Of a DNA stretch of 21,006 bases, positions 4,793 through 18,846 are shown piece by piece. The position numbers and the translations under genes are program-made. The first letter of the stretch is position 1. Each line of letters opens with the position of its first letter. Where the stretch lies: positions 1-21,006 of the IMG/VR virus record IMGVR_UViG_3300002835_001332; one strand, 5' to 3'. The stretch comes from a virus. The notes beneath the pieces were generated by a model that did not search any database, was not told where the DNA came from, and saw only the letters and a list, made by a program, of their open reading frames with translations.

Positions 4793-5848
4793 ATGGCATA
4801 CGTCTTAGGTGGCGGTAATAATGAAGCAGATGGCTTCACAACAGCAATCGCCGGTTTCGCACTACGTGCAATGCACGAATCAAATGGTCTAGTTAACATG
4901 ACCAACGTTGTTACACCTACACAGGGTAACGAATACTTAGTTCCACAGTTCGCACCAATCACTTATCAGGATTACACTCCTGTAGGTAATGCTGGTACTT
5001 GGGGCACAGGTAACGCAAACGTACAGAACCCATCACTTGGTCAAGGTTCTATCACAGCAACTCCAGCAGTTGCAACAACTGCATTCGATATTTTCTACGG
5101 ATGGACAACTTCATTCCAGTTAGCAGCCACTCTTGGTGCTGAATTGGGTGATTCATTCGCTGAAAAGGTTGACCAGCGTGTAACAAAAGCCTTCTTGTCA
5201 TTCAAGGCTACACCACTCAACGATTTCTACCCAACAAGTGCTGACGGCTTCGACCGTGTAAGCGCACTTGGTGCTATGGAATTGATGGCTGCAGGTCTAC
5301 CTTCTAACACAGCAGGTTGGACAACTGGCTTCACCACAAGTGAAGTACTTGACCTAGTTCGCTTAGTTAAGCAGAACTTCAAAGTCGCTCGTATGCCTGG
5401 TGCTCCAGTCATCGTTCTTGACTCAAACGGTTATGTTCAGGAAGCAGTAGTAGGTTCACCTGGTGGTTCAGGTTCTTCATTAACTCGTCTATTAGGTGAG
5501 TTAACTGGTGGCGCTGTATCACAAGCAGGCGGAAGCAACTTGTCAGCACTCGGTAACGAATTGCTATCAACTGGTCGTATCGAATCAGTTTATGGTTGCA
5601 TGATTATGTTCACTACATTCTTAACACCAACAACACGTGTATTCCTAGGTCAGCAGTCAGCAAGCAATTGCTTGGTCGGTGCTTACTTCGGTGACAGTGC
5701 ATTGTTCACTGTTATGAAGGAAGGTCTACAGATTAAGACTGGTGAAACTCCAGGTGGTCTACAGATGTGGCTCACAGGCGTTGGATACTTCGGTTCTGGC
5801 GTAGGTGACGGTCGTCGTGGTGGTGCTATTAACATCTATCAGGACTAA
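4793..5848 (+). CDS. Major capsid protein
   Basis: A 351-residue protein with a very strong ribosome binding site (AAAGGAGA) just after the scaffold gene, and Gly/Ala/Thr-rich beta-type composition typical of HK97-fold coat proteins. It would form the icosahedral shell. The N-terminus (MAYVLGGGNNEADGF) is not a long charged delta domain, and no maturation protease gene is seen nearby, so assembly probably relies on a separate scaffold. All 19 phenylalanines are encoded by TTC, whereas the fibre gene at 17611 uses TTC for only 2 of 19; this suggests translational selection on a heavily made protein. A strong hairpin follows 10 bases after the stop. Confidence 0.88.
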   Translation: MAYVLGGGNNEADGFTTAIAGFALRAMHESNGLVNMTNVVTPTQGNEYLVPQFAPITYQDYTPVGNAGTWGTGNANVQNPSLGQGSITATPAVATTAFDIFYGWTTSFQLAATLGAELGDSFAEKVDQRVTKAFLSFKATPLNDFYPTSADGFDRVSALGAMELMAAGLPSNTAGWTTGFTTSEVLDLVRLVKQNFKVARMPGAPVIVLDSNGYVQEAVVGSPGGSGSSLTRLLGELTGGAVSQAGGSNLSALGNELLSTGRIESVYGCMIMFTTFLTPTTRVFLGQQSASNCLVGAYFGDSALFTVMKEGLQIKTGETPGGLQMWLTGVGYFGSGVGDGRRGGAINIYQD

Positions 5849-6901: not shown

Positions 6902-7420
6902 ATGGCAAGAATTACAGTTAACGAATCAGGCACACAACCATTGCTTCTATTGAGCATGGATATTGCCAACGCAACTGCTGCCAATCTAGCAAATGGAAAT
7001 ATCGCACTTGCTAATAGCCTTTCTGTAACATGCTTACAGGATATCACTATTACATCAAGCACCGGTATCTTCTCATGGACAGATTTTTGCAGTATCGACA
7101 CTAACAAAATCACCACACCAGCAGATAACGAAGTTTCTACAAACATTGTTATCGATCCAACTGGATACTTTGGTGCCAACACAGCAATTCAAACTGCTGA
7201 GGATCAAGGCATTGCAAGTTTGAGCCAGAACAAGATTCCTGTTCAGTTCAAACTAGTATGGAACAATGACAATCCTAACGCAAACGTTGCGAACTCATAC
7301 TTCACAACTGGCGTTGGTTACATCAGTTCACTTGCACCTACAGTAAGTCCTGAAGCGCCTGTCTGGGTCACACCAATGACAATCGCTGTTGATGGTACAA
7401 TGTATAACGGCATTAACTAA
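6902..7420 (+). CDS. Major tail tube protein
   Basis: A 172-residue, Thr/Asn/Ala-rich, beta-type protein with a very strong ribosome binding site (AAGGAGAA) and an intrinsic terminator just after it, as expected for an abundant structural protein. It lies after the tail terminator-like gene and before the chaperone pair and tape measure, which is the standard siphovirus slot of the tube subunit. No sheath-like gene accompanies it, arguing for a non-contractile tail. I do not see a diagnostic motif; the call is from context and composition. Confidence 0.75.
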   Translation: MARITVNESGTQPLLLLSMDIANATAANLANGNIALANSLSVTCLQDITITSSTGIFSWTDFCSIDTNKITTPADNEVSTNIVIDPTGYFGANTAIQTAEDQGIASLSQNKIPVQFKLVWNNDNPNANVANSYFTTGVGYISSLAPTVSPEAPVWVTPMTIAVDGTMYNGIN

Positions 7421-7680: not shown

Positions 7681-7706
7681 CGTGAAACAATTTAAGGAGA
7701 CAACAA

Positions 7707-8003
7707 ATGAAACTTTCACAAATCACAGCAAAACCCCAACTAATCGAAGTAGTCATTGATGATGAAGATACCATCAGTGAGTTTGGCGAGTCATTGTCAT
7801 TCTATACTTGGGATCGTCAACCAATGGATGTGTTTCTCAAATTAGCAAATATTGAGCAAGACGCAGACAACAACGTAATTGCAATCGTAAAAACATTAAT
7901 CTTAGATGAGAATGGCAAAGAGATTCTTGCAGATAACAGAACCTTGCCTGCAAAGTTATTGATGAAATCAATTGCAAAGGTTACTGAATTGCTGGGAAAG
8001 TAA
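7707..8003 (+). CDS. Tail assembly chaperone, lambda G-like (0-frame product)
   Basis: A 98-residue acidic protein just upstream of the tape-measure region, the place of the lambda G / GT chaperone pair that coats the tape-measure protein and recruits tube subunits. AAGGAGA at 7693-7699 is a strong ribosome binding site. The sequence FYTWDRQPMDVFLKLANIEQ and the overall size fit phage tail assembly chaperones. Its last codons read CTG GGA AAG TAA and contain a GGGAAAG slip site, so a fraction of ribosomes should shift -1 and continue to 8266, making a 186-residue fusion. Family call is from context plus the frameshift arrangement. Confidence 0.75.
   Translation: MKLSQITAKPQLIEVVIDDEDTISEFGESLSFYTWDRQPMDVFLKLANIEQDADNNVIAIVKTLILDENGKEILADNRTLPAKLLMKSIAKVTELLGK
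7994..8000 (+). promoter_or_regulatory. Programmed -1 ribosomal frameshift site GGGAAAG
   Basis: GGGAAAG is in the proper register (CT-G GGA AAG-TAA). The two tRNAs can re-pair on GGG and AAA, after which translation continues with GTA at 8000. The 0-frame stop follows immediately. The same heptamer is used in the lambda G-T frameshift. The -1 frame is open from 7988 to the stop at 8264-8266. A weak hairpin (TGATA 8008-8012 with TATCA 8020-8024) lies 7 bases downstream. Confidence 0.9.
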
Positions 8004-8266
8004 CAAATGATAGTGTCGATATCAAGTCACAAAAAATGGCTATGATATTGATGATTGACGAGTTGAGCAAGAGATATGGTCTCTTGCCCAGCGAGGTTAT
8101 TAGAAGAGCAGATACTTTTGATGTTTGGATTATGGACTGTTCATTATCATTCCACAAATATCATGAGTACAAGCAGGGCCATAATGGTAAGGCGCCAGTC
8201 CCAGATTATAGCACTGACGAATTGAAATCTATGTTAGCGAGGAACAGAAAAGATGTTAAAGGCTAA
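8000..8266 (+). CDS. Tail assembly chaperone T domain, made by -1 frameshift from the upstream gene
   Basis: The second part of the GT-type chaperone, 88 codons from the slip site to the stop. It has an ATG at 8036 (76 residues), but no ribosome binding site stands before it (TCAAGTCACAAAA), which argues against independent initiation. In the lambda system the T domain binds the tail tube protein while the G domain binds the tape measure. Here the segment contains a helical stretch (MIDELSKRYGLLPSEVIRRADTFDVWIMDCS), a pattern common in T-domain proteins of siphophages. Its end overlaps the next gene by 14 bases. The fusion would be 186 residues. Confidence 0.8.
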   Translation, partial: VTNDSVDIKSQKMAMILMIDELSKRYGLLPSEVIRRADTFDVWIMDCSLSFHKYHEYKQGHNGKAPVPDYSTDELKSMLARNRKDVKG

Positions 8267-8543
8267 AATTGTTGTTAACAATATCACACCTAGTGCTACT
8301 AGAATTCAAAATGCACTTGCTAAGTTGCCTCAAGAAGCATACAAAGTGTTCAAAGACAACACACCTATTAAAACAGGTAATGCACGTAGAAAAACTCGAC
8401 TATCAGGCGACACTATCAGAGCAGATTACCCTTACGCAGAAAAATTAAACGAAGGTTACAGTAAGCAAGCACCACAAGGCATGGTTACACCAACAGAAAA
8501 GTTTTTGCGCAAGCGAATCAGAGAAATATTGCGTGGAAAATAA
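8253..8543 (+). CDS. HK97 gp10-like tail/neck protein
   Basis: A 96-residue basic protein with the pattern TPIKTGNARRKTRL ... YPYAEKLNEGYSKQAPQGMV.PTEKFLRKRI, which matches the HK97-gp10-like family (TPxxTG...RxS...YAxxxxxG...P.GF..P). Family members act at the head-tail interface or tail completion. GAGGAA about 8 bases before the ATG lies inside the end of the T-domain reading frame. The position after the chaperones and directly before the tape measure is unusual; the family normally sits ahead of the tube gene. Confidence 0.75.
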   Translation: MLKAKIVVNNITPSATRIQNALAKLPQEAYKVFKDNTPIKTGNARRKTRLSGDTIRADYPYAEKLNEGYSKQAPQGMVTPTEKFLRKRIREILRGK

Positions 8544-8551
8544 GGTGACCT

Positions 8552-11014
8552 ATGGCAGACTTAAAATATTCAGTAGAGATTGATACCAGAGGCGCAACAA
8601 GCGCACTTAATGGATTAAAGGCAGCAATCGCAGGTGTTGTTGCTGGCTTAACCACAGGTGTACTTGTTGATTTCGCAGACTCTATTACATCATTAAAGAA
8701 TAAACTTGCCACAATCACACCTGAACTAGCAAATGTTGATAAGCAATTCAAAGCAATTGCTGCCATTGCTATTAGTTCAAGAACACCACTAGAACAAACT
8801 GGTGACTTGTACTTTAGAATTGCACGTGCGGCTGATGATTTAGGTATCAGCCAGCAAGAAGCCGCAAACATTACAGATAGTGTTGCAAAAGCAATCAGTG
8901 CTACTGGATTGTCTGCACAAGAAGCCGCAGGTCCACTATTACAATTGGGCCAGGCATTGCAATCAGGGCGTTTTCAGGGTGATGAATTACGTAGTATCTT
9001 AGAAGGTATGCCTGTTGTTGCTAAGGCAATGGCAGACAGTCTAGGTGTTACTGTTGGTGAACTACGTGAACTTGGTAGTCAAGGTAAGATTACTGGTGAT
9101 GTGTTTGTGCAAGCAATGCGCAAAGCAAAAGACAGTATTGATGAAGCATTCTTACGTACACAACCTACAATCAAGCAAGCATTTGAAACATTAAAGACAA
9201 GCAGTAAACTTGCATTTGATGAGTTTGAGAAGAACTCTAAAACAGGTGCTTCAACAGCACGTGTAATCGAATATCTTGGCTTTATGATGTTCAAGGCTGC
9301 TAAGAATATTGATGAATTTATTGGCCCACTAAAGATTCTAATTCAAATTCTTGCAACACTTGCTACATTTACTATTGTTGGTAGAGTAATTAGAGCAATT
9401 GGTGCTGCCTTTACTGCAACATCAACAGCCATTTCTACCTTTTCTGCGGCCGCAACAGGGGCAGTAAGTACTTTCAGAGCAGGATTTGCTTCTTTAGGTA
9501 GAACAGTTGAAGTTGCTACATGGTATATTGCACGTTTCATGAAAGGCAATGCAACCTTAAGCAGTTTGTTAGTGGATCTTGGAAAAAGATTCGCATTCGT
9601 TAGACAGGGCGTTGGTCTCTTAGGTAAAGCATTCGTATCAATTAAAGGTTACTTATTGCAATTAGCAACAGCGATTGCAAGTTTTCTTGGTATTGACGCA
9701 TTAATTGACAAGATTAAAGAAATTGGCAGTGGCACAGGCGAAACTGCTGATGATATGGCTGACTTCCGTAAAGAACTAGCCAACATGAAGAATGGCTTGG
9801 ACGATACTGCTGGTGCAGGCGCAAGTGCCATTGCAACACAAAAAGAACTTGCTAGAGCCGCCGCAGAAGCCGCATATCAATTAGCACTTGAAGCAAAACA
9901 ATATCACGATGCAGTAGCAGAACAGAAGAAAAATCTTAAAACACAAATGGAAAACATTGGTGTTGCAGAAGATATCTTGCGTGTTCGTGAAAATCTTTTA
10001 GAGTTTGATAGAAACTATGCTCAAGAAGAGAAAAGATTAAGCGAAGCAATTGCTAAAGCAAGTTTAAGTAAAGATGACAAAGAACGCAAGAGCATTGCGT
10101 CATTAAGAGAATACTTAAAACAATTACGTGAATCACGTGACGCAGACCGTGCTGCCATTGAAGGTCAAACACAAGCAATCAACGAAAAGTTGGCCGCTGA
10201 CAGATTACAACAATATCAGACAGAAGCACTCATCAAAGCAAATGAAGAGTTGCAAAAAGTCCAAGATGACATTGCCAAATTGACAATGACTGAAATGGAA
10301 AAGAAATATTATGATATTGATAGAGCAGCCAAGCAAGCAGCCGAATCTGCTATTCGTGCAGAAGAAAAGATTCGTGGACGCAAGTTAACAACTAACGAAG
10401 CAAAAGCATATTATGATGCGGCAAAGCAAGGTGCTGAAGAACTCAAAACAGCAAATCAAGACCTTGTTAATCAGTCAATGACATTTGATACTGGTTGGAA
10501 GCAAGCACTCAATAACTATTTGACAGAAAGCACAGATAAAGCCGCACAAGCAAAACGTGTGTTTGAAGGATTTACAAAGGGCATTGAAGATGCATTCGTA
10601 AACTTTGCTAAGACAGGTAAGTTGTCATTCAAAGACCTATTGAACTTCATGCTTGAAGAGTTTGTACGTAGCAACGTAAGAAACTTGTTCGCAGATATCT
10701 TCGGTGGTGGTGGCAGTGGTGGCAGTACTATTGGTAGCATTTTTAAGTCAATCTTTGGTCTTCGTGCTGATGGTGGCCCTGCACAAGCAAATAAACCATA
10801 TATTGTTGGTGAGGAAGGTCCAGAACTATTCGTACCTAAAGGAACTGGTACAGTATTGCCTAATGGTGTTGGTATGGGTGGCACAACAAATAACACTTAT
10901 ATTACTAACAACATTCAAGCAGTTGACGCAAAGAGTGTTGCGCAATTATTTGCTACAAATCGCAAAGCATTGTTAGGGTCAGTTGAAATGGCACGTAAAG
11001 AATTGCCGTACTAA
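8552..11014 (+). CDS. Tape measure protein
   Basis: An 820-residue protein that sets tail length and is ejected with DNA. The N-terminal third carries the tape-measure domain pattern (SSRTPLEQTGDLYFRIARA, LQLGQALQSGRFQGDELRSI, LEGMPVVAKAMADSLGVTVG, ELRELGSQGKITGDVFVQAM). A hydrophobic, potentially membrane-active stretch follows near residues 260-300, then long charged helices (about 420-560) rich in Ala, Glu, Lys and Gln. The C-terminus has the lambda gpH-like end: FKDLLNFMLEEFVRSNVRNL, a Gly-rich linker, and ADGGP...PYIVGEEGPELFVP from residue 739. At about 0.15 nm per residue the tail would be roughly 120 nm long. AAGGTGA is the ribosome binding site. I see no lytic transglycosylase motif. 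Confidence 0.95.
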   Translation: MADLKYSVEIDTRGATSALNGLKAAIAGVVAGLTTGVLVDFADSITSLKNKLATITPELANVDKQFKAIAAIAISSRTPLEQTGDLYFRIARAADDLGISQQEAANITDSVAKAISATGLSAQEAAGPLLQLGQALQSGRFQGDELRSILEGMPVVAKAMADSLGVTVGELRELGSQGKITGDVFVQAMRKAKDSIDEAFLRTQPTIKQAFETLKTSSKLAFDEFEKNSKTGASTARVIEYLGFMMFKAAKNIDEFIGPLKILIQILATLATFTIVGRVIRAIGAAFTATSTAISTFSAAATGAVSTFRAGFASLGRTVEVATWYIARFMKGNATLSSLLVDLGKRFAFVRQGVGLLGKAFVSIKGYLLQLATAIASFLGIDALIDKIKEIGSGTGETADDMADFRKELANMKNGLDDTAGAGASAIATQKELARAAAEAAYQLALEAKQYHDAVAEQKKNLKTQMENIGVAEDILRVRENLLEFDRNYAQEEKRLSEAIAKASLSKDDKERKSIASLREYLKQLRESRDADRAAIEGQTQAINEKLAADRLQQYQTEALIKANEELQKVQDDIAKLTMTEMEKKYYDIDRAAKQAAESAIRAEEKIRGRKLTTNEAKAYYDAAKQGAEELKTANQDLVNQSMTFDTGWKQALNNYLTESTDKAAQAKRVFEGFTKGIEDAFVNFAKTGKLSFKDLLNFMLEEFVRSNVRNLFADIFGGGGSGGSTIGSIFKSIFGLRADGGPAQANKPYIVGEEGPELFVPKGTGTVLPNGVGMGGTTNNTYITNNIQAVDAKSVAQLFATNRKALLGSVEMARKELPY

Positions 11015-12422: not shown

Positions 12423-12875
12423 ATGAACATTAGATTAGCAAATAAATTTGACCAACCACATATCTTTAAAATGCTACGCAATTTTAGAGACTGTAGCCCT
12501 ATTCAAGTTATGTCTACTATAGACAACGAAGAATACGTCAGTAAGTTATTGAATGCATTGTTGCATGGCAGAGGCGTAGTATTGATTGCAGAGAAAGAAG
12601 AACCAGTAGGTATGCTCATGGCTGTGATTGACCAAAATGTGTGGGATCCAAATGTATTTCTAATGAAGGAACTTGTTTATTGGGTTGAACCTGAATATAG
12701 AGGAACTACAGCAGGATATAGATTATTAGCAAAGTATAACGAACTTGCCAAAGAATTAGTTGATGAAGGCAGAATTAGTTTTTATACTATGAGCAAGTTG
12801 GCAAAATCTCCTGACTTAGATTATGGTAGATTTGGCTATCAACGAGTCGAAGAAACTTGGGTAGCAGGAGTATAA
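12423..12875 (+). CDS. GNAT-family N-acetyltransferase-like protein
   Basis: A 150-residue protein with a GNAT outline: N-terminal beta strand and helix (MNIRLANKFDQPHIFKMLRN), central strands (VVLIAEKEEPVGMLMAVI), motif A strand-helix KELVYWVEPEYRGTTAGYRL with the acetyl-CoA-binding segment R93-G-T-T-A-G98, and a C-terminal FGYQRVEETWV strand. The pyrophosphate loop is a variant of Q/RxxGxG/A, with Thr at the fourth position. Such enzymes transfer an acetyl group from acetyl-CoA to an amine; the substrate is unknown. The gene starts 3 bases after the hub-like gene and ends one base before the J-like gene, so it is firmly inside the tail-tip operon, at the position where lambda has K and I. 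Confidence 0.78.
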   Translation: MNIRLANKFDQPHIFKMLRNFRDCSPIQVMSTIDNEEYVSKLLNALLHGRGVVLIAEKEEPVGMLMAVIDQNVWDPNVFLMKELVYWVEPEYRGTTAGYRLLAKYNELAKELVDEGRISFYTMSKLAKSPDLDYGRFGYQRVEETWVAGV

Positions 12876-16342: not shown

Positions 16343-17611
16343 ATGAGTGATATCAATTTAGATTTTGTTGTTGACAGTAGTAACATAAATGTTACTGTTG
16401 ACACTAACGACATAACATTTACACCTCAAGATATTTCTTTGAATATCTACAGCACTGCCGTGTCTGTACCAGGCGGTTCATCAGGACAGTTGCAATATAA
16501 TAACGCTGGCATATTAAGTGGTGTACCTAATGTAACATATACTAGTGGCAATCTTTCATTAGGTAATGTTAGTAATGTTCGCATCAATGGTGGTGTTAAT
16601 GGTTACTTTTTGCAAACAGATGGCACTGGTAATTTAACTTGGGCTGTAGGTGGAGGTGGAGGTAATGGTTCGCCAGGTGGTAGCAACACACAAATTCAGT
16701 TTAATGATAATGGCGTATTTGGTGGCAATGTTGGATTTACATTCAATAAAACCACAGGTGATGTTGCTGTACCTGCAAATTTAACTGTTACTGGTACATT
16801 AAATGCAAACATTGGTGCTCCTGGAAATACAACAGAAATTGTATTCAATCAAGGAGGGGCATTTGCAACCAATGCAAATTTAAAATATTCATTTGGTTCA
16901 TTAAATGTAAGTAATGGCGCAGTTATTGCAGATTCATTTACTGGTAATGCCGCAAATATGTTTAGTATTAATGGTGGTAATGTTACAGGTAACGTTCCAT
17001 CTTCAGTGCTTGCTAATGTTGCAAATTTTGCTGGTAGTGTAACCACAAACGCACAACCTAATATCACAAGTGTTGGCACATTAAGTTCATTGACAGTAAC
17101 TGGCAATATTAATGCAGGTAATGTCAGTGCTACATTATTGGGTGGTACATTAACAACGCCAGCACAAACAAGTGTTACATCTCTTGGAGTATTAACTGAT
17201 ATCTCTACTACTGGAACAACATCAATTTATGAAGCAATTGAAAATGTTGCTATTATTGGTGCACAAACAGGCACTTACAACTATAATTTCTTAGATGGTG
17301 CGATTCAGTATAGTACTGCTAATGCAACTGCTAACGTTACATTAAATTTTAGAGGTAACTCAGGATCAACATTGAATAGTGTATTAGGCAATGCAAAAAG
17401 TGCAACTGCTACCTACGTTATGACTACAGGTACAACTGGATATGCAGTAAATGCAGTTCAGATTGATAGTTCTGCACAGACGATTAAATGGGTAAATGGT
17501 TCTACCCCTGCATTAAACAGTAACAGTGTTACTGCATTTACCTTTACATTAATCAAAACATCAACTACACCTACATATACAGTATTAGGTAGCGCAACAA
17601 GGTACGCATAA
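16343..17611 (+). CDS. Modular tail fibre protein (IQFN repeats)
   Basis: A 422-residue Gly/Asn/Thr-rich fibre protein. It holds three copies of a degenerate module: GQLQYNNAGILSG, TQIQFNDNGVFGG and TEIVFNQGGAFAT. A later block, TTNAQPNITSVGTLSSLTVT, is typical of phage fibres. NGYFLQTDGTGNLTW and the TQIQFND module recur in the fibre at 19705, so the two genes are paralogous in part. The C-terminus (residues about 350-422, with VQIDSSAQTIKWVNGSTPAL and FTLIKTSTTPTYTVLGSATR) resembles a C-terminal domain widespread in structural proteins of aquatic phages. The start follows the adaptor stop by one base, and the stop overlaps the next ATG by one base (TAATG), so the three genes are translationally coupled. 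Confidence 0.8.
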   Translation: MSDINLDFVVDSSNINVTVDTNDITFTPQDISLNIYSTAVSVPGGSSGQLQYNNAGILSGVPNVTYTSGNLSLGNVSNVRINGGVNGYFLQTDGTGNLTWAVGGGGGNGSPGGSNTQIQFNDNGVFGGNVGFTFNKTTGDVAVPANLTVTGTLNANIGAPGNTTEIVFNQGGAFATNANLKYSFGSLNVSNGAVIADSFTGNAANMFSINGGNVTGNVPSSVLANVANFAGSVTTNAQPNITSVGTLSSLTVTGNINAGNVSATLLGGTLTTPAQTSVTSLGVLTDISTTGTTSIYEAIENVAIIGAQTGTYNYNFLDGAIQYSTANATANVTLNFRGNSGSTLNSVLGNAKSATATYVMTTGTTGYAVNAVQIDSSAQTIKWVNGSTPALNSNSVTAFTFTLIKTSTTPTYTVLGSATRYA

Positions 17612-18846
17612 TGCCATTAAATGCAACATTCAGTGCGGCAAGTATTCGTGGTTACTCAGCCCAAAGTGTAAATTTTTGGAATCCAACTCAAGTTGTGACT
17701 GCAAGCGATGCTGGTGCCAATGATGCCTTTGGCACTTCATTGGCTGTAGATAGCAATAATTTATATATGGCTGTTAGTGCAAGTGGCGATAATACTGGTG
17801 GAAATCAAGGAAGCGTTTATATTTTCTTTAGAGGTAGTGGTAGTTGGGTACAACAACAAAAAATTACATCGCCTACTACTTCATTAAATTTTGCTACTAG
17901 GCAATTAGCAATGAATGCTAATGGCGATTATTTAGCCATTCCAGATACCCAAGTAAATAGAGTTTATGTTTATACTAGAGTTAGTTCAACGTGGACTTTA
18001 CAAGCAACACTAACTGGTAGCGATACTGTAGCAGGTGACCAATTTGGCAGAGCAATATCAATTTCATCTAATGGTGATTATCTTGTAGTTGGTGCGCCAA
18101 ACGCAGATATTAGTGGGCAAACAGATGCAGGTGCGGCATATATTTTTATACGTTCGGGTACTACTTGGACTCAGCAAGCAAAATTGCAGGCAAGTGACAG
18201 ACAAGCAAACGACATATTAGGTACTAGTGTAGTTATTAATTCTACAGGAGACTTTGTTGCATTAGGTGCGCCACAAGAAGATAATGTTGGTAGTAATGCT
18301 GGTGCCACATATTTTTATACACGTTCAGGAACTACATGGACTCAACGTAATAAAGTGCAGTCTAGTGACGTTAGTGCTAATGATAACTTTGGTGGAAGTT
18401 TATCAATTAGCGCAGATAATTTATATTTGATTATTGGTGCACGAGGTGACAATGGCGATTCAGGTTCAGTGTATGTTTTTAATTATATAGGTGGGTCTAT
18501 TGTTTATACACAAGGTGCTAAAGTTACACCTAACATACCTATTGCAGGCCAATTGTTTGGTACTAATTCAGATATAAATTTTGATGGCACTAGAATGGTT
18601 GTAAGTGTTGAAAGTAATTCTGCTGATGGTCAAAGCGTATATTTGTTTGAACGCAGTGGTAGCACTTGGACACAATCATTTCAGATTGTAGTAAACAATC
18701 AATCACAGTATTTTGGATTAGGTTCTGATGGGCCAGTACCAGGAATTGTGGTAGGCACATCAAATCCTAACATCATTATATGTGACTTTGGCGCTGATGC
18801 AGGCGCAGGAAACTTATCAGGTGTAGTTAACTACTTTAATTTATAA
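17611..18846 (+). CDS. FG-GAP beta-propeller receptor-binding protein candidate
   Basis: A 411-residue protein that appears to be one seven-bladed propeller of the FG-GAP / integrin-alpha type. Seven repeats start near residues 28, 86, 135, 193, 250, 306 and 360. A repeat reads roughly: xxSDxxANDxFGxSxxI, then GDYLxVGAPxxD, GAxYxFxRSGTTWTQQAKL. Blades 3 and 4 match the pattern best (DQFGRAISIS, LVVGAPNAD; DILGTSVVIN, VALGAPQED); blades 2 and 7 are the most degenerate. The first 27 residues could attach it to the fibre or adaptor. Such propellers bind proteins or glycans, so a receptor-binding role is likely but inferred. It uses TTT for 17 of 19 Phe codons. It starts on the TAATG overlap with the preceding fibre gene and closes the first receptor cassette. 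Confidence 0.78.
   Translation: MPLNATFSAASIRGYSAQSVNFWNPTQVVTASDAGANDAFGTSLAVDSNNLYMAVSASGDNTGGNQGSVYIFFRGSGSWVQQQKITSPTTSLNFATRQLAMNANGDYLAIPDTQVNRVYVYTRVSSTWTLQATLTGSDTVAGDQFGRAISISSNGDYLVVGAPNADISGQTDAGAAYIFIRSGTTWTQQAKLQASDRQANDILGTSVVINSTGDFVALGAPQEDNVGSNAGATYFYTRSGTTWTQRNKVQSSDVSANDNFGGSLSISADNLYLIIGARGDNGDSGSVYVFNYIGGSIVYTQGAKVTPNIPIAGQLFGTNSDINFDGTRMVVSVESNSADGQSVYLFERSGSTWTQSFQIVVNNQSQYFGLGSDGPVPGIVVGTSNPNIIICDFGADAGAGNLSGVVNYFNL

Follow-up and report, generated by a model that had tools for sequence, protein, structure and literature searches.

Shortly upstream of the tape measure gene of the uncultured phage studied here, two reading frames, G and T, overlap by a few nucleotides. 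The initial annotation had proposed a lambda-type -1 frameshift giving a 98-residue G-like protein and a 186-residue GT-like fusion. Comparative evidence and the predicted fold of G strongly support this proposal, and we put at roughly 0.93 the probability that a programmed -1 frameshift yields two tail assembly chaperones of 98 and 186 residues from a single start. Throughout, the window designates the whole 21,006-nt stretch of viral DNA that was analyzed.

A slippery heptamer lies within a 16-nt overlap of two reading frames

The junction and its surroundings contain the following features.

7693-7700, + strand: ribosome-binding site of the G gene, UAAGGAGA, 6 nt before the ATG at 7707 (anti-SD duplex of -9.0 kcal/mol)
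7707-8003, + strand: putative G-like tail assembly chaperone, 98 aa, 0 frame (open reading frame, 165 related loci, predicted fold)
7994-8000, + strand: predicted slippery heptamer G_GGA_AAG (phase, conservation, codon choice)
8001-8003, + strand: 0-frame stop TAA, no spacer (directly after the heptamer in all unique junctions but one)
8000-8266, + strand: T-like domain, -1 frame, 88 aa and stop, predicted to be made only as a fusion (frame and conservation)
8036-8038, + strand: first in-frame ATG of the T frame, an unlikely start (SD-like site absent nearby; position of the first ATG varies)

The 98-residue G frame ends in CTG GGA AAG TAA, which places GGGAAAG in the phase X_XXY_YYZ with 0 nt between the heptamer and the stop. 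The -1 frame is closed by a TGA at 7985-7987, is open from 7988 onward and runs through the slip site to a stop at 8264-8266. The 0 and -1 frames are jointly open over 16 nt only, and the heptamer lies inside this overlap. Both the register of the heptamer right before TAA and the open state of the -1 frame at the slip site, as initially described, were thus borne out. After slippage, the -1 frame would contribute 88 residues starting with a valine (GTA, 8000-8002), giving a fusion of 98 + 88 = 186 residues. Furthermore, a scan of the whole G gene revealed GGGAAAG to be the only phased X_XXY_YYZ heptamer in its 0 frame.

The junction is conserved as nucleotides

Relatives were gathered first with G as the query and afterwards with a profile of T (499 matching stretches, 80 of which were retained for the comparative set), and one bacterial contig from a beta-proteobacterial MAG was added. 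The set comprises 165 loci, in which certain contigs are counted more than once, and contains 87 unique junctions and 58 clusters at 85% nucleotide identity. The phase of T with respect to the G stop is -1 in 165/165 loci. Downstream of the slip, stop codons interrupt the 0 and +1 frames in 165/165 loci, and 163/165 have 240 nt of uninterrupted -1 frame; at one locus (L047), T has 46 codons only.

Conservation of the heptamer and of the immediate TAA among homologues had been named initially as a check, and both turned out to be almost fixed over the 87 unique junctions. All but two of them carry GGGAAAG or GGGAAAA at the slip site, and the stop follows directly in all but one, the L054 type, in which a single TTT codon intervenes. 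The two exceptions at the slip site, L032 (GGGGAAG) and L074 (GGGGGAA), are both without a canonical heptamer. For these two variants normal A-site tRNA re-pairing would be impossible, and P-site-only slippage or another mode would be needed.

Codon choice at the slip site departs from that in the remainder of the G gene. The leucine codon of the heptamer is TTG or CTG in 57/57 clusters vs 29% of leucine codons elsewhere in G, the glycine codon is GGA in 55/57 clusters vs 10% elsewhere, and the lysine codon is AAG in 41/56 clusters vs 22% elsewhere. Among the conserved codons within the last 40 of the G gene, the heptamer glycine codon has the lowest entropy. The junction is therefore conserved as nucleotides, beyond the conservation of its residues.

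These data bear on the simplest competing explanation, namely a heptamer that arose by chance next to an overlapping open reading frame unrelated to G. About 1.05 copies of a bare GGGAAAG are expected per window by chance, so that the heptamer alone is not significant and the case rests on its placement and conservation. However, its phase, its position in the 16-nt overlap and its conservation are above chance. Together with the codon bias, and over 165 loci, they refute this explanation, whose probability we regard as negligible.

T is probably translated only as a fusion to G

T could also be a gene of its own, with re-initiation past the G stop, or coupling to it, delivering ribosomes to ATG 8036 or to a different in-frame start. 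The -1 frame has no ATG earlier than this one. The distance of about 33 nt between the G stop and ATG 8036 would suit such a start, as would the ATG that occupies the equivalent codon in 40/58 clusters; in the remaining clusters, however, the first ATG is elsewhere or missing. The absence of a ribosome-binding site at ATG 8036, pointed out in the initial annotation, was confirmed, as no SD-like sequence was found near it. Across the family, an SD-like site is absent near any in-frame T start in 53/58 clusters, whereas one is present at the G start in 58/58 clusters. Furthermore, the ten codons preceding ATG 8036 show a dN/dS-like ratio of 0.23 in the -1 frame and of 3.2 and 2.1 in the other two, indicating protein-type selection upstream of the supposed start, and the T protein alignment is conserved from the slip residue onward. 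An independent or coupled start at ATG 8036 was rejected on these start-signal and codon-evolution data, and we consider it very unlikely.

Homologues that lack the heptamer and possess separate start signals for the two frames were also looked for, and the outcome favors frameshifting. These observations strongly support the reading, drawn from sequence comparison, that T is made exclusively as part of a GT fusion.

The predicted fold of G resembles that of tail assembly chaperones

No convincing sequence match of G or T to a named chaperone family was found in Pfam, PHROGs, NCBIfam, the PDB or named phages, and the named phages of the collection contained no convincing homologue of either protein. 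When the AlphaFold2 model of G (pLDDT 83, pTM 0.74) was compared with the PDB, 2OB9, the tail assembly chaperone of HK97, ranked first in both Foldseek (E 0.24, probability 0.77) and VIA-align (Z 6.5 over 90 residues), a moderate match. YqbN (3KLU) was the third match (Z 4.2), and viral models named tail assembly chaperone were matched as well. The modeled fold of G is thus like that of known tail assembly chaperones, at the level of a moderate match. For T, phrog_6541, annotated as of unknown function, matches 34/51 members (best E 1.8e-6). The T model is of modest confidence (pTM 0.50), and a fold search with it returned no match.

Two genes follow T.

8253-8543, + strand: neck/tail-completion-like gene, between T and the tape measure gene (phrog_169, E 4.6e-9)
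8552-11014, + strand: tape measure protein, 820 aa (TMP_3, E 4e-55; Tape_meas_lam_C, E 6.8e-15; PHROG tape measure families)

The start of the neck-like gene overlaps the end of T, and this gene is found downstream of T in 155/155 loci with room for it. Upstream, a gene at 6902-7420, in the position of a major tail protein gene, is kept in 148/148 related loci; it has no PHROG or Pfam match, and no library identified it as a major tail protein.

By arrangement and predicted fold, the locus is very probably a lambda-type G/GT chaperone frameshift, the core biology of which is already known. What appears to be new is its signal architecture, a conserved dnaX-like set of putative stimulators combined with an adjacent stop. 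The stimulator candidates, an SD-like element and two hairpins, are signals absent from the initial annotation.

An SD-like element precedes the heptamer

7977-7983, + strand: SD-like candidate stimulator, AAGGTTA here and AAGGTGA in the family consensus, 10 nt before the heptamer

Anti-SD pairing peaks across the family with an 8-nt window ending 7-11 nt before the heptamer, where it averages -5.5 kcal/mol vs -2.2 in synonymous-codon controls (z about -8 to -9, and about -9 at gaps of 8-10 nt). The consensus AAGGTGA ends 10 nt before the heptamer and reflects a preference for the lysine codon AAG (46/56) and the valine codon GTG (32/54). Since the -1 frame is non-coding at this element, the overlap of reading frames cannot explain its conservation. 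The version present in the window, AAGGUUA in the mRNA, is weaker (-3.8 kcal/mol). Internal SD sequences of this kind figure prominently in E. coli dnaX and, by estimate, in 56% of IS elements (PMC5009743).

The same element could in principle act without any frameshifting, by recruiting ribosomes to a non-standard start codon that immediately precedes the heptamer in the -1 frame. The spacing of about 7 nt to this codon suits initiation. However, the candidate codon, GCT in the window, varies from cluster to cluster among GTT, ATT, ACT, GCT, CTT, TTT, CCT and TCT, and the stretch of -1 frame that is open ahead of the heptamer contains no ATG, GTG or TTG in any of 57 clusters. Internal initiation would also leave the conserved heptamer unexplained. 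For lack of a usable start codon and for this last reason we rejected it as extremely improbable, and we retain the SD-like element as a candidate stimulator of the -1 frameshift.

Two conserved hairpins follow the junction

8015-8052, + strand: hairpin SL1 (minimum free energy fold; family z; compensatory pairs in two clades)
8062-8092, + strand: hairpin SL2, over the codons of LxKRYGLLPS (family z; double changes)

RNAalifold gave no pairs when all 57 sequences were used to find a single consensus RNA fold, because clades pair differently. Hairpins were thus assessed by folding clades separately and by comparing per-sequence energies with permutations, in which codons were permuted within columns among sequences sharing the residue. 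This analysis gave z scores of -13.3 for SL1, -9.2 for SL2 and 0.0 for a neighboring control stretch; the permutation breaks relatedness, and parts of G also reach z values of -3 to -6, which are the background against which the hairpin scores are to be read. Along the core clades, a sliding scan found structure concentrated in two sharp peaks, one spanning +4 to +48 and the other +49 to +102 relative to the stop, with little around them. In the window itself, positions 8004-8095 fold with -31.4 kcal/mol (z -5.25 vs dinucleotide shuffles).

Covariation points to the same two hairpins. Compensatory changes in SL1 exchange C-G and U-A at columns 41/71 in the GGGAAAA clade, and G-C and A-U at columns 43/78 in another clade. 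In SL2 they affect columns 92/122, 95/119 and 98/116, with 28 double-change cells vs 12.3 in shuffles, a value that 0/500 shuffles attained. Rfam contained nothing relevant. In a deep clade (L068, L073, L079 and L085), GGCGAGG just after the stop pairs with CCTCGCC about 55 nt later, with a change to G-U in L073.

SL1 starts 7, about 10 or 14 nt after the heptamer in three clades, and the 14 nt seen in the window is longer than usual for a stimulator. With about 60 nt between it and the heptamer, SL2 is too distant to stimulate slippage in a simple, direct way, and no conserved pseudoknot or SL1-SL2 loop-loop kissing contact was seen by eye. Both points would fit genuine frameshifting accompanied by a different task for SL2, and perhaps for SL1, such as mRNA processing, mRNA stability or regulation of the downstream gene. 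In contrast, the proximity of SL1 to the heptamer, and the fact that structure downstream of the slip peaks at SL1 and SL2 only, argue for a role in the frameshift. We consider another purpose for the hairpins a substantial possibility, albeit the less probable one, and treat them below as putative stimulators.

The GGGAAAA clade (L018-L165, 15 clusters) has both the strongest SD-like site (median -8.2 kcal/mol) and the strongest SL1 (median -13.7). A pairing of GGGAAAA with stronger signals as compensation was considered and rejected; the association occurs in a single clade and is therefore no evidence of compensation.

The adjacent stop may tune the ratio of the two products

Distances from slip site to stop average 26 nt in the phages used to train PRFect and 36 nt in those of the Xu set (PMC10885494). 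The immediate stop seen here was initially described as unusual, which does not hold for this family, nearly all of which has it fixed. Furthermore, precedents exist elsewhere: RSV and BYDV have a stop directly after the slippery site (PMC4373837), and so, in the zero frame, does a minority of dnaX genes in bacteria (PMC5009743).

It had also been suggested that the stop itself may promote pausing and tune the ratio of the products. In the one relevant experiment found, -1 frameshifting at the HIV slippery sequence in bacteria decreased when a stop was placed right after it, and an excess of release factor 2 abolished this frameshifting (PMC4373837). These results lead us to read the stop as a competitor that would tune the ratio, and not as a pause that promotes slippage, which the HIV-site experiment does not support. 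By analogy with this published work, competition between the adjacent stop and slippage through release factor is the more likely role.

A model for the synthesis of G and GT

We infer that most ribosomes would read G to its TAA and release the 98-residue protein, and that a minority would be slowed by the SD-like contact behind them and by the hairpin ahead. In these, tRNA-Gly and tRNA-Lys would re-pair from G_GGA_AAG to GGG_AAA, and the slipped ribosomes would continue in the -1 frame to produce the 186-residue GT fusion (...LLGK-VTNDSVDIK...). A ribosome that translocated without slipping would meet release factor at once; with the stop as the next codon, termination would compete with late slippage and help to set the G:GT ratio. 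By analogy with lambda, G would coat the tape measure protein, and the T domain of GT would recruit the major tail protein.

One may speculate further that the SD-like contact, the heptamer with its adjacent stop and the two covarying hairpins form a composite, release-factor-sensitive element that sets a G:GT ratio different from that of lambda, with SL2 acting at a distance. We regard this extension as tentative and rather unlikely in its full form.

The comparison with lambda G/GT reveals a shared heptamer, G_GGA_AAG, a shared -1 direction, and a short chaperone with a longer fusion encoded shortly before the tape measure gene, without detectable sequence similarity. However, the lambda heptamer lies 15 nt before the G stop instead of 0 nt, and a neck-like gene separates T from the tape measure gene only here. 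Furthermore, the SD-like element that occurs family-wide here at the 10-nt spacing has no counterpart at that distance in lambda, where the best pairing is -2.5 kcal/mol at 16 nt, and the downstream fold of lambda has a z of -1.87, compared to two hairpins here. HK97 gp13, the protein of the best PDB match, is also annotated with a -1 frameshifted longer form and shares 9% identity with G; a simple phase scan did not locate the HK97 slip site.

In E. coli dnaX, the SD-like element is separated from the slip site by a gap of 10 nt. In the present family, an SD-like element about 10 nt upstream is found at the family level, being weak in the window and missing in some deep clades, and SL1 occupies the place of the dnaX stem shortly downstream of the heptamer, with a spacer of 7-14 nt depending on the clade. 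The two systems thus share an upstream SD-like element, the role of which in dnaX is described in PMC5009743, tandem slippery codons ending in A_AAG, and a downstream hairpin. In contrast, the gene and the heptamer are different, and the shift leads to early termination in dnaX and to extension here. RSV and BYDV resemble the present family in that a stop codon comes immediately after their slippery sequence (PMC4373837), but their slippery sequences and gene functions are different and their ribosomes are eukaryotic.

Tail chaperone frameshifting is widespread, and clear stimulatory signals at phage G-T sites have rarely been described; the literature that we searched contained no report of a conserved SD-like element with hairpins at such sites. 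The family provides about 58 diverged natural versions of the cassette that differ in heptamer, SD strength and hairpin position, with which trade-offs between elements and the setting of the ratio by the adjacent stop become directly testable. It also suggests a likely function for two protein families without names in Pfam, PHROGs or NCBIfam.

Other genes of the window

The terminase large subunit has a relative in Vibrio phage 1.157.O. An HNH endonuclease gene at 1757-2251 (HNH_3, E 1.7e-12) overlaps the end of the terminase gene and is followed by a gene at 2267 that would encode the portal, judging by its position. The gene at 4793-5848 is in the position of the major capsid gene; PHROGs and Pfam gave no match for it, and neither did tblastn against named phages. 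A GNAT-family acetyltransferase (12423-12875, E 1.1e-5) is encoded among the tail genes. Finally, the tail-fiber region encodes a protein (17611-18846) with at least four FG-GAP repeats (E 1.9e-50), a beta-propeller-type domain that is commoner in cell-surface proteins.
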